A DNA stretch of 36,339 bases from Tissierella sp. (GTDB lineage Bacteria; Bacillota; Clostridia; Tissierellales; Tissierellaceae). Below are positions 12,342 through 20,556 of this stretch, one piece after another. The stretch is from contig JAAYGX010000179.1 in assembly GCA_012735585.1 (NCBI GenBank), positions 1-36,339 of the forward strand, read 5' to 3'. Position 1 is the stretch's first letter; each line of letters begins with the position of its first letter. The notes beneath the pieces are model-generated. The model saw nothing but the letters and a program-made list of their open reading frames with translations, made no database searches and was not told the DNA's origin. The position numbers were made by a program, and so were the translations under genes.

Positions 12342-12920
12342 CTAGTACCTCCTAATGTTTCTAACTTCATTTAATAAAAGTAGATAATTATTATATCTTT
12401 CTTCATCGATAATACCTTCTTTGACTTTTTCTTTAATAGCACAATTAGGCTCCTTATCATGTAAACAAGATAAAAATCTACAATCCTGACTATATTTATT
12501 AATTTCTCTAAAATAATCTTTAACGTCAGTTTCATCTTCAATAAAATCTAGATTCAAAGAAGAAAATCCTGGTGTATCCAGTATAAAAGACTCACTATCT
12601 AGTTCCAAAAGTTCAATGTGTCTAGTAGTATGTTTACCCCGCCTGGTCTTATTGCTCACAGTACCAGTTTCCAGATTCAGTCTATTATCAACCTTGTTTA
12701 ACAAAGATGATTTGCCAACTCCTGAAGGTCCAGCAAAGACACTAATATTTCCCAATAGATTTTTCTTTAAATCATCTATACCAATATCTAGTTTCGTACT
12801 AGTTAATAAAACTTTGTAACCAGCTTTCTCATAAATTTTCTTATATTTTTCACTTAAATCCAGATTTAAATCGGACTTGTTGATGCATACAGTAACATCA
12901 AGACCTTCATACTCAGACAT
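12342..12920 (-). CDS. rsgA: RsgA, GTPase and zinc-domain part of an interrupted gene
   Basis: RsgA is a circularly permuted GTPase that matures the 30S ribosomal subunit. This piece (192 codons from an ATG) holds the permuted G motifs: G4 NKSDL, G1 GPSGVGKSSL, G3 DTPGFSSL. It ends with the zinc site CRFLSCLHDKEPNC and the C-terminal helix. It is in the same frame as the OB-fold piece upstream (12930-13217); the two are separated only by TAG-Phe-Leu-TAG. The ATG at 12920 follows the second TAG directly, so reinitiation is conceivable, but no good SD precedes it. Intact homologues are about 290 residues, equal to the two pieces plus four codons. I regard this as a broken gene or a sequence error, with split expression possible. 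Confidence 0.8.
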   Translation of the reverse strand: MSEYEGLDVTVCINKSDLNLDLSEKYKKIYEKAGYKVLLTSTKLDIGIDDLKKNLLGNISVFAGPSGVGKSSLLNKVDNRLNLETGTVSNKTRRGKHTTRHIELLELDSESFILDTPGFSSLNLDFIEDETDVKDYFREINKYSQDCRFLSCLHDKEPNCAIKEKVKEGIIDEERYNNYLLLLNEVRNIRRY

Positions 12921-12929
12921 CTACAAAAA

Positions 12930-13217
12930 CTAATCCAAGAGCCATGTGTTTATGTCAGGACTCTTCACACTCATAACAACTATGGCTTGTGTCACATTAG
13001 CCACAGGTGGCCTTAGAAGCTGAGTGCTTCTATTAGCAATATCTACAACATATCCAGTTCCATCTTCTTGGCTTATTCTTACCTTTACTTTGTCACCAAC
13101 TAGAGGGGTGATATCACTATCTCTGAACACCCCTCTAGCACGGCTCTCTATGACACCTTCTTTAGTTTTTACATAATAAAAACCGCCAATACCTTTGATT
13201 ATTATACCTTCTAACAT
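12930..13217 (-). pseudogene. rsgA: RsgA, N-terminal OB-fold part of an interrupted gene
   Basis: Ninety-five codons encoding the OB-fold that binds 16S rRNA: MLEGIIIKGIGGFYYV, RARGVFR, TPLVGDKVKV, RSTQLLRPPVANVTQAIVV and SPDINTWLLD. Family members continue with a sequence like LLDRFLVLAEYEGL; here the codons read Leu-Leu-Asp-TAG-Phe-Leu-TAG-Met-Ser-Glu-Tyr-Glu-Gly. Each TAG (12932-12930 and 12923-12921) is one substitution from a plausible codon (AAG Lys, TTG Leu), and no frameshift is needed. GGTGA precedes the ATG, just after prkC. The gene terminates normally with a third TAG at 12342, so TAG also works as its true stop. Confidence 0.8.
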
Positions 13218-13227
13218 ATATTCACCA

Positions 13228-15189
13228 TTATTCCGTTATAGTTTGAGTGAATTGATATATATCATCAAAATAAATATCAAATTCTGCGCCTACAATACCT
13301 CTTAAGCCTATAGCAACTTCACCATCACTAAATTTATGGTTTTCCTTGTATATCTGCATCTGTAATCCTTCTTGTTTTCTAATGATCTTGATTTCTGTTT
13401 CTTCCCTGTCACTAAATGGTGTCAAACCTATAGTTATAGTTCTTTCACTATTTGGATCATCAGTAGTCGGCTCTTCTTCCTCTTCAACCTCTTCAGGTCC
13501 TAAACTTATATATATATCTACAGCAGTCTTTGTTTCAACTTCAGTACCTGGCTCATATGATTGCCAAAACACCTCGCCTATTGGTGCTGTTTCATGATGC
13601 TCTTTCTTAGCTTCCCCAACTACTAGATCCGCACCTATAATTTCATTACGGGCTGCAGTCTCGCTAAGTCCAACAAGACTAGGCATTGGAACATTTTTAA
13701 TCTCTTCTCCTTGACTAATAAGCAGATTAACTCTAGAACCAGGAGCTAAATAAGTAAATGCTTCAGGCTCCTGCCTCATAACAACATTATTTGGAGTTAC
13801 ATCAGATGGTTCATATTTTCTTTCGCCAACTTGTAGTCCTGCGTCCTGCAACGCCTTTTCAGCTTCTTCATAAGTGTAATTAACTACACCAGGAACCCTT
13901 ACTAAATCTTTGCCTTCGCTAATTACAACATCAATAGTAAATCCTTCTTTAACCTTAGAATCTGCCTTTACACTTTGACTAATTACTCTACCTGGTTCGA
14001 TTTCAGTACTAGTTGCTGTACTCTTAACATTAAATATTAGACCTAATTCTTCTATTTGTTCCCTGGCTTCACTTTCAAGTTGCCCTCTAATATCAGGAAC
14101 TATAACTTCTGCTACATCAAAGAAATCTTGTAGCTTTAACCAACCAGCAAATACAATTGTTACTACTAAAAAGGCTAATAAAATGGCCAATAAAATCATT
14201 TTTATGCCGCCGTCACCTTTTTTGTTTTTATTTTTTCTATTATTCTTTCCCTTAACCTTTGAAGTATTCTTCATCTCATCAACACTCTCTTCTTTAATGA
14301 TTGGAATCATTCTTGTAGGTTGTTCACCAGCATCTGTATCTATAACAAAGTTAGAGGCACCATTATTCTTTATTTTTTTCAAATCATTAATAAGAGCCCC
14401 AACATTCTCGTATCTATCACTTTGTCTTTTTTGGACGCATTTCAATATGATTGATTCAATACCAACTGGAACAGTACCATCTACCTCCCTAGGTGGCACT
14501 ATCTCATCTTGGACATGCTTTAATGCAACTGAAATAGGCGTTTCACCATCATATGGCAGTTTACCAGTAATCATCTCATACATAACGATACCAAGAGAAT
14601 ATATATCAGATTTTTCGTCAGTATATCCTCCCCTAGCTTGTTCAGGGGAAAAATAATGGACTGAGCCTAATACATTTGAAGTAGTAGTTAAAGTTGAGGA
14701 AGTAGCAGCCCTAGCAATTCCAAAATCAGTCACTTTAACTCTATTGTCCTCATTAATCATAATGTTTTGTGGCTTAATATCCCTATGTACTATATGATTA
14801 AGATGGGCATGTTTTAACGCTTCCGCTATTTGTATTGAATAATTTACTGTCTCATCAAAGGATAATTTACCATTTTCCCTGATTACTTCTTTTAAAGTCT
14901 TACCTTTGATATATTCCATAACTATATAATGAATTTCTTTATTATCTGATTTTTCAACACCTACATCGTAAATGTTCATAATATTATGATGTGATAGACT
15001 AGCTGCTGCCTGAGATTCTCTTTTAAACTTTCTAATAAACTCTTCATCTTCTAAAAATTCATTTCTTAGTATTTTTATGGCAACAAATCTATTTAAAAGA
15101 TGACATTTAGCCTTATATACAATGGCCATGCCGCCTCCGCCAATCTGTTCAATTATTTCATATCTATCACCTAAAATTTTTCCTATCAT
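13228..15189 (-). CDS. prkC: PASTA-domain Ser/Thr protein kinase PrkC
   Basis: A membrane-anchored serine/threonine kinase of 653 residues that senses muropeptides or lipid II outside and phosphorylates cell-division, wall and translation proteins inside; it promotes spore germination in Bacillus. Kinase domain about 10-270: glycine loop IGGGGMAIVY (16-25), Lys39, HRD at 135-137, DFG at 155-157, and SPEQARG. A basic linker (310-328) precedes one membrane helix (about 330-350). Three extracellular PASTA repeats follow (about 361-427, 428-496, 497-566), then an acidic linker and an extra C-terminal beta-rich segment of about 70 residues. It lies between prpC and rsgA, the standard arrangement; RsgA is a known target of PrkC. 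Confidence 0.96.
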   Translation of the reverse strand: MIGKILGDRYEIIEQIGGGGMAIVYKAKCHLLNRFVAIKILRNEFLEDEEFIRKFKRESQAAASLSHHNIMNIYDVGVEKSDNKEIHYIVMEYIKGKTLKEVIRENGKLSFDETVNYSIQIAEALKHAHLNHIVHRDIKPQNIMINEDNRVKVTDFGIARAATSSTLTTTSNVLGSVHYFSPEQARGGYTDEKSDIYSLGIVMYEMITGKLPYDGETPISVALKHVQDEIVPPREVDGTVPVGIESIILKCVQKRQSDRYENVGALINDLKKIKNNGASNFVIDTDAGEQPTRMIPIIKEESVDEMKNTSKVKGKNNRKNKNKKGDGGIKMILLAILLAFLVVTIVFAGWLKLQDFFDVAEVIVPDIRGQLESEAREQIEELGLIFNVKSTATSTEIEPGRVISQSVKADSKVKEGFTIDVVISEGKDLVRVPGVVNYTYEEAEKALQDAGLQVGERKYEPSDVTPNNVVMRQEPEAFTYLAPGSRVNLLISQGEEIKNVPMPSLVGLSETAARNEIIGADLVVGEAKKEHHETAPIGEVFWQSYEPGTEVETKTAVDIYISLGPEEVEEEEEPTTDDPNSERTITIGLTPFSDREETEIKIIRKQEGLQMQIYKENHKFSDGEVAIGLRGIVGAEFDIYFDDIYQFTQTITE

Positions 15190-19125: not shown

Positions 19126-19140
19126 AATTATCACCTCATA

Positions 19141-19233
19141 CTATTTTAATATCGTTCCGGTATCAATTGTATTCCCAGCCAAGTATTCCATAACTTTCAT
19201 ACGCCTTTTATTTGGAAATTGTAATTCCTCAAT
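19141..19233 (-). pseudogene. fmt: Detached C-terminal codons of fmt
   Basis: Directly beyond an in-frame TAA (19236-19234) the same frame stays open for 30 codons to a TAG at 19143-19141. It reads IEELQFPNKRRMKVMEYLAG and onward, which is the conserved C-terminal strand and helix of Fmt (family pattern LQ-P-KKRM-x-x-x-x-L-x-G). The yugP ribosome site begins right after the TAG. The true gene therefore ended here, and the TAA is a point mutation (for example TTA to TAA), a sequencing error, or a readthrough codon. Confidence 0.7.
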
Positions 19234-20070
19234 TTAAATAATTTTATCTGAAGTATTCACTGATACCCCATTATTTGATACTTCTATTATTTTACCTGGC
19301 TCACCTTGGCTATTTTGGTCACTTAATTTTACTTTGTGAACCTTAACCTGACTATCATTATAATAGGTAAAAGCCCCAGGCCAAGGAGTAAGTCCACGGA
19401 CATGATTGAAAATCTCCCTAGCAGATTTATTCCAATCAATTTTACCAGTATCCTTGTATAACATTGGTGCATAGGACGATTCTTCATCATTTTGTGGGGT
19501 ATAAACTGCTTTACCTTCAGCTATATCCTTTAAAGTAGATACAAGAAGCTCTCCACCTAGTTTAGATAATTTATCATGTATACTTGTAGCATTATCATCT
19601 TCAAGTATTGGTACGATACCTTTACTTATCATATCCCCCGTATCTAATCCTTCTTCAATTTTCATTATAGTAACGCCAGTCTCTTTTTCCCCATTGATTA
19701 TGGACCAATTAATCGGTGCTGCTCCTCTATACTTTGGCAGTAACGAAGCATGAACATTGATACAATCTATTTTTGGAATATCTAGAACTTTTTTCTTTAA
19801 TATTTGTCCATAGGCAACTACAATTAGAAAATCAGGATGAATCTCTTCTAATATTTTTAAAGATTCTTCATTGTTTATATTATCCGGTTGATAAATTTCT
19901 AGTCCCAGTTCCAATGCCTTTTCTTTTACCGGTGTATATTGAAGCTTCTTACCTCTTCCTTTAGGCTTATCTTTTTGAGTGATAACCAAAGGAATATCAT
20001 AACCACTTTTAAATAGCTCCTCTAATGTGGGCACAGCAAAGTCTGGTGTGCCTGCAAAAACAATTTTCAT
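19234..20070 (-). CDS. fmt: Methionyl-tRNA formyltransferase, truncated by an in-frame TAA
   Basis: Fmt formylates initiator Met-tRNA using 10-formyltetrahydrofolate, making fMet-tRNA for initiation. The 278-residue open frame starts MKIVFAGTPDFAVPTLEELF and has the folate-site block CINVHASLLPKYRGAAPINW (catalytic Asn and His) and the EEGLDTGDM Asp. The second, tRNA-binding OB domain begins at about 205 with RGLTPWPGAFT. Fmt proteins are usually 305-315 residues; the missing 31 are encoded beyond the TAA in the same frame (see 19141-19233), giving 309 in total. The lost segment is the last strand and helix of the C-terminal domain, so activity could be reduced. It follows def by six bases. 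Confidence 0.9.
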   Translation of the reverse strand: MKIVFAGTPDFAVPTLEELFKSGYDIPLVITQKDKPKGRGKKLQYTPVKEKALELGLEIYQPDNINNEESLKILEEIHPDFLIVVAYGQILKKKVLDIPKIDCINVHASLLPKYRGAAPINWSIINGEKETGVTIMKIEEGLDTGDMISKGIVPILEDDNATSIHDKLSKLGGELLVSTLKDIAEGKAVYTPQNDEESSYAPMLYKDTGKIDWNKSAREIFNHVRGLTPWPGAFTYYNDSQVKVHKVKLSDQNSQGEPGKIIEVSNNGVSVNTSDKII

Positions 20071-20076
20071 TTTAAA

Positions 20077-20556
20077 TTACTCCTCTTCTTCCTCTTCGTC
20101 GGTGGATATATCTACATATTCAATAACTTTATCCGTATAAAGTATACCATCTAAATGATCGATCTCGTGGCAAATAGCCTTTGCCAATAGGCCAGTCCCC
20201 TCCAGGATATTTTCTTCCCAATGCTCATCTAGATATTTTATCTTCACTCTTTCAGGTCTTTCAACAGTTCCAGCCTTATTTGGAATAGATAAACAGCCTT
20301 CTATATCTATATATGATCCTTCTGTTTCTATAAACTCAGGATTGATCATCTTAATAGGGCCTTCTCCTATATCTATAATTACAATTCTTCTAAGAACTCC
20401 TACTTGTGGTGCAGCTAACCCCACACCATCAGCATGATCCATAGTTTCTACCATATCATCTAATAATACTTTTATTCGATCAGTCATTTCTTCAACTGGT
20501 CGTGATTTTTTCCTTAAAATAGGATCTCCTTCTAATCTTATGTTTCTCAATGCCAT
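20077..20556 (-). CDS. def: Peptide deformylase
   Basis: A metalloenzyme that removes the formyl group from nascent proteins, acting after Fmt. The 159-residue protein has the three motifs: [10 protein letters not shown] (motif 1), EGCLSIP (motif 2, metal-binding Cys) and HEIDHLDG (motif 3, two His and Glu). It ends in a run of glutamates. It lies between priA (11 bases upstream) and fmt (6 bases downstream), the usual priA-def-fmt order. Confidence 0.97.

Follow-up and report, generated by a model that had tools for sequence, protein, structure and literature searches.

A premature stop codon in fmt of a Tissierella draft genome: a probable base error in a consensus with similar stops in other conserved genes

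The window, which is the whole stretch of 36,339 nucleotides analysed here from a draft Tissierella assembly, carries the gene fmt with def directly upstream and a yugP-like gene (Pfam profile PF04298, Zn_peptidase_2) directly downstream. Coordinates of these and all other features are collected in Table 1. Positions 19135-20070, read on the minus strand, translate as ...NTSDKII*IEELQFPNKRRMKVMEYLAGNTIDTGTILK*YE. The initial annotation had proposed that fmt contains a TAA near its end, that the frame continues beyond it to a total of 309 residues, and that it closes just before the yugP ribosome site. Translation confirmed each of these points: the TAA is codon 279, the frame comprises 309 codons followed by TAG, and 3 bases separate this natural stop from the GAGGTGA of the yugP-like gene.

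Table 1. Features of the window and in-frame stops in conserved genes elsewhere in the same assembly (positions without a contig name refer to the window).
Feature	Position	Strand	Basis
fmt, 309-codon frame plus stop	20070..19141	-	translation
fmt codons 1-278, both Fmt domains, the second incomplete	19237..20070	-	TIGR00460, PF00551, PF02911
in-frame TAA, codon 279 of fmt	19234..19236	-	translation; sense codon in 29/29 other aligned sequences
Fmt-like tail past the stop, 30 codons	19144..19233	-	longer profile match on read-through; 77% and 83% identity to same-genus Fmts
natural TAG closing the fmt frame	19141..19143	-	translation
GAGGTGA, ribosome-site-like, of the yugP-like gene (ATG 19125-19123)	19131..19137	-	read from sequence
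def (peptide deformylase), open	20077..20556	-	sole PF01327 match in genome
rsgA frame, 291 residues, interrupted	12342..13217	-	TIGR00157, PF16745, PF03193; aligned with both same-genus genomes
in-frame TAG, rsgA codon 96 (K in both same-genus genomes)	12930..12932	-	alignment
in-frame TAG, rsgA codon 99 (L in both same-genus genomes)	12921..12923	-	alignment
aspS-gatC, TAA	C213:1639-1641 (L154)		profile across stop
gpsA, TAA	C99:75081-75083 (L153)		profile across stop
SDR, TGA	C213:64429-64431		profile across stop
histidine kinase, TAA	C227:33043-33045		profile across stop
peptide-binding protein, TAA	C218:30233-30235		NCBIfam profile only
asnS, TAA	C1:14982-14984 (L179)		NCBIfam across stop; two Pfam domains flank stop

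The codons past the TAA had been described as family-typical, and the profile searches agreed. The truncated fmt frame scored 304.0 bits against TIGR00460 and 323.9 bits when read through, both above the curated cut-off of 201.5 bits. For the C-terminal domain (Formyl_trans_C, PF02911; profile length 100) the match rose from 79.8 bits over positions 3-77 to 105.2 bits over positions 3-99, so that this domain is incomplete in fmt as annotated and complete only on read-through. Identity of the tail to the Fmts of two same-genus genomes (G001 and G002) was 23/30 and 25/30 residues, and that of the body 203/278 and 185/278. Judged by sequence, the 30 codons beyond the TAA are plainly an Fmt C-terminus. 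The gene resembles known Fmt (TIGR00460; PDB 1fmt, 2fmt, 3q0i, 4iqf) in having both domains within a 309-codon frame, and it carries no change of its own at the 62 invariant columns; it differs in its TAA at codon 279, with a stop in none of 57 other Fmt-bearing genomes. Another Fmt gene in this genome was ruled out: there are only two further Formyl_trans_N matches, and sequence and neighbours point to other enzymes in both cases. The match on C213 we take to be purN-like, and that on C231 is presumably a sugar formyltransferase-like gene, adjoining a neuB-like gene.

The part of the protein that would be lost was judged from a predicted structure of the intact Fmt of G001 (mean pLDDT 95.0), in which the last long strand spans residues 276-284 and the last helix residues 293-297. 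Alignment to E. coli Fmt had no gaps across the stop site. On this model, ending at codon 279 would cut the last long strand and remove the last helix. The loss of the last strand and helix claimed in the initial annotation is roughly correct. Such a truncation would probably inactivate Fmt; our literature search found no measurement for C-terminal truncations of Fmt, which is not to deny that one exists.

To see how far the stop extends beyond this genome, we searched 59 relatives. No stop was present in any of the 57 that have Fmt; among all 60 genomes, 58 have Fmt and only the genome studied here is interrupted. The remaining two, G019 and G028, gave weak formyltransferase matches and no full Fmt; both are drafts, about 96% complete. 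In a 30-row alignment the column of the stop holds a sense codon in all 29 other sequences, mostly I, V or L. No internal fmt stop was found in the best 80 of 588 loci from named genomes. A class-wide search returned an Fmt match in 372 of 391 genomes, and among the matches listed one other genome was interrupted, the draft G434 (L064, G434:C427:3500-6500), with a lone TAA at fmt codon 35. By these sequence comparisons the stop at codon 279 is private to the genome studied.

The lesion, if real, would also be very young. Relative to the two same-genus genomes the fmt tail differs by 10 synonymous and 7 nonsynonymous codon changes in one case and by 12 and 5 in the other, and the whole protein has no change at the 62 columns that are invariant in the other 29 sequences. 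Since the tail is conserved like the body and the invariant columns are intact, fmt was under selection until very lately, and the lesion is either very young or not real. An excess of missense changes at invariant sites would be beyond the power of these alignments at about 3e-4 errors per base.

A second gene of the window, rsgA, is interrupted by two TAG codons. The best RsgA match was free of stops in every one of the 59 other genomes; G025 has a third, partial match that does contain one. Of the open reading frames of G001 and G002, 29/30 and 34/37, respectively, matched the window. In this search fmt and rsgA were the only genes interrupted inside, and one G002 match also ran over a stop that precedes the gene at 13228-15189. 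The reverse search, with the open reading frames of the window, met stops in two genes only, and there at their ends, where the window frame extends beyond that of the relative. The order of matched genes along the window is the same as in both G001 and G002. Given nine independent stops, the chance of two falling as close as those in rsgA is about 0.004, and their lying within four codons of each other hints at a locally poor stretch of sequence.

Stray stops were also present elsewhere in the assembly (G000), a 3.0-Mb draft made up of 237 contigs. We sampled 587 kb of it (about 20%), with 600 called genes and 526 kb of coding sequence, and counted a gene as interrupted when a family profile ran across an in-frame stop. 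Together with fmt and rsgA, this yielded eight genes with nine stops, the genes being otherwise well conserved. Of the eight genes, fmt was given beforehand and asnS entered through a contig chosen because its stop was already known; the other six are free of such choice. The nine stops comprise six TAA, two TAG and one TGA (proportions expected under random substitution: 0.49, 0.23 and 0.28). Among 32 raw frameshift candidates in the first 412 kb, one was credible by eye. A possible frameshift lies on C213 at about 63161-64074, where past a stop at 63697 the coding signal continues for 125 codons in another frame. An ABC transporter ATPase on C218 (38449-38451, L162) has a TGA at residue 244 followed by a coding-like tail and may be interrupted; it was left out of the count, as the Pfam match stops short of the TGA and only the end of one NCBIfam match passes it.

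Both gpsA and asnS are on the essential list of B. subtilis; some bacteria can do without fmt or rsgA. An AspS-GatC fusion occurs beside an ordinary AspS in this genus and in G007 (G000 C213:691-2865, L154; G001 C234; G002 C125; G007 C193), and the second aspS of the genome studied here is open. The genome also has a second, weaker gpsA homologue without a stop. For asnS, present in this genome, no match was found in G001, G002 or G007.

To assess whether stops are unusually frequent in this draft, we compared it with 400 kb of a closed relative (G021). Raw coding-potential candidates numbered 25 among 600 genes here and 17 among 421 in G021, and because they were equally frequent in the closed control, this screen alone is too noisy. 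Nine of the 25 candidates were profiled (the eight counted genes and the ABC transporter ATPase) and the remaining 16 were discarded by eye; of the 17 in the control, two were profiled: in one the profile extends past the stop, and the other is borderline, with a Pfam match that begins at the stop. The difference between 8/600 and 2/421 interrupted genes was not significant (p = 0.21), nor was that obtained without fmt and asnS (6/600 vs. 2/421, p = 0.48); with one control gene counted instead of two, p was 0.09. An excess of stops over the closed genome is suggested by the kind of gene struck and not proved by their number. Best matches with a stop in other genomes were 0/57 for fmt, 0/35 for asnS, 0/39 for gpsA, 0/59 for rsgA and 1/19 for aspS, a comparison that shows privacy and not frequency, as these genes were picked for their stops here. 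A pooled test of four genes picked in this way carries the same bias and is given no weight as a measure of rate. With the codon usage of this genome, a random substitution creates a stop with a probability of 0.051, and nine stops in 526 kb thus correspond to about 3.4e-4 errors per base, a rate we judge plausible for a draft.

On balance we favour the explanation that the fmt TAA is one of a number of base errors scattered through the draft consensus. Many single-base errors would be present, of which few happen to create stop codons, and the living organism probably keeps an intact 309-residue Fmt and ordinary Met-tRNA formylation. Similar stray stops in other housekeeping genes of the draft make sequence errors likelier than real biology, and we infer that base errors, not real alleles, lie behind its stops. 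In favour of this, the fmt stop is private and the tail beyond it is conserved like the body, the mix of stop codons fits random substitution, and credible frameshifts are few. Moreover, G001 and G002 keep the aspS-gatC fusion without a matching asnS, and here both asnS and the fusion carry stops; were both truly broken, the cell might be left with no way of making Asn-tRNA, provided that the second aspS serves tRNA-Asp only.

Lethality is nevertheless no bar to real decay, since both gpsA and aspS have another, stop-free homologue and fmt and rsgA can be dispensed with in some bacteria. In M. smegmatis, by the account in PMC1852416, resequencing of 73 interrupted genes traced 28 to sequencing errors and 45 to other causes, and such genes accounted for 1.4% of coding capacity. 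These figures count against the base-error reading, and the second is close to the 8/600 found here. The cases here resemble the interrupted coding sequences (ICDS) of bacterial genomes treated in that account, which may be errors or authentic mutations, in that a single in-frame stop interrupts a conserved gene whose frame is otherwise preserved and in that several interrupted genes occur in one genome. They differ in being mostly stops, not frameshifts, and in being known from the assembly alone, whereas errors were told from mutations there by resequencing. Our literature search found no report of base errors creating stops in metagenome assemblies, although such reports may exist.

The next explanation is that the nonsense allele is real and recent, whether fixed or present in only some members of the population; we consider it rather unlikely. 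The resulting Fmt, 278 residues long, would lack half of the last strand and the last helix. Formylation would then be lost or weak and growth would suffer, as it does in known fmt mutants; we think this outcome equally doubtful. The TAA is in the assembly, and loss of fmt can be survived: E. coli without fmt is reported to grow about tenfold more slowly (PMC4611024), and fmt mutants are described as resistant to deformylase inhibitors, with a loss of fitness that further mutations can lessen (PMC2859245). Two of the 59 relatives (G019 and G028) have no Fmt match, though these are drafts. Against a nonsense allele, no further decay was seen in fmt and core genes unrelated to formylation bear the same kind of lesion. 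The sole def is open as well, although def is reported to become dispensable after fmt loss in M. smegmatis (PMC6815462).

Readthrough of a real stop, often enough to yield some full-length Fmt at a lowered level, seems very improbable. The conserved look of the downstream frame would suit it, and one survey makes the case that prokaryotes widely carry in-frame stops under purifying selection, which suggests readthrough (PMC7918605). The fmt case shares with the cases proposed there an in-frame stop and a conserved downstream frame; it differs from them, as they are presented in that survey, in that the stop occurs in no relative (0/57) and nothing positive for readthrough was found here. All three stop codons are involved across the genes, and no tRNA reading a stop was among those found in a tRNA set that is incomplete. 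Both genes with the release-factor domain PF03462, which we take to be RF1 and RF2, are open.

Hardly better placed is a strain mixture or chimeric contig, such that the consensus reflects a minority allele or a join. The assembly measures 3.0 Mb, against 1.7 and 1.9 Mb in the two same-genus genomes, and its asnS has no match in either of them, as might be expected of a mixture. Estimated contamination is only 1.77%, however, and the matched genes of the window follow the order of both relatives. Slimmer still is the prospect that the lineage truly bears all three kinds of stop in fmt, rsgA, asnS and aspS-gatC, with leaky termination lowering and coupling the levels of these proteins. Recoding was ruled out, because a programmed event would be expected to place the stop at a conserved position among relatives, which do not share it, and because all three stop codons are hit across genes.

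The initial annotation had called the loss of the last strand and helix notable. Real loss of formylation is not the likeliest reading of a draft that also has stops in rsgA (two), asnS, aspS-gatC, gpsA and other genes. With eight conserved genes hit in about one fifth of the genome, single stops in this draft are unsafe as signs of gene loss, and losses of function inferred from the assembly, that of formylation included, need read support. Base errors and recent nonsense alleles are both familiar, whichever of them the fmt TAA represents; a real stop would add one more viable loss of fmt, a possibility already known.
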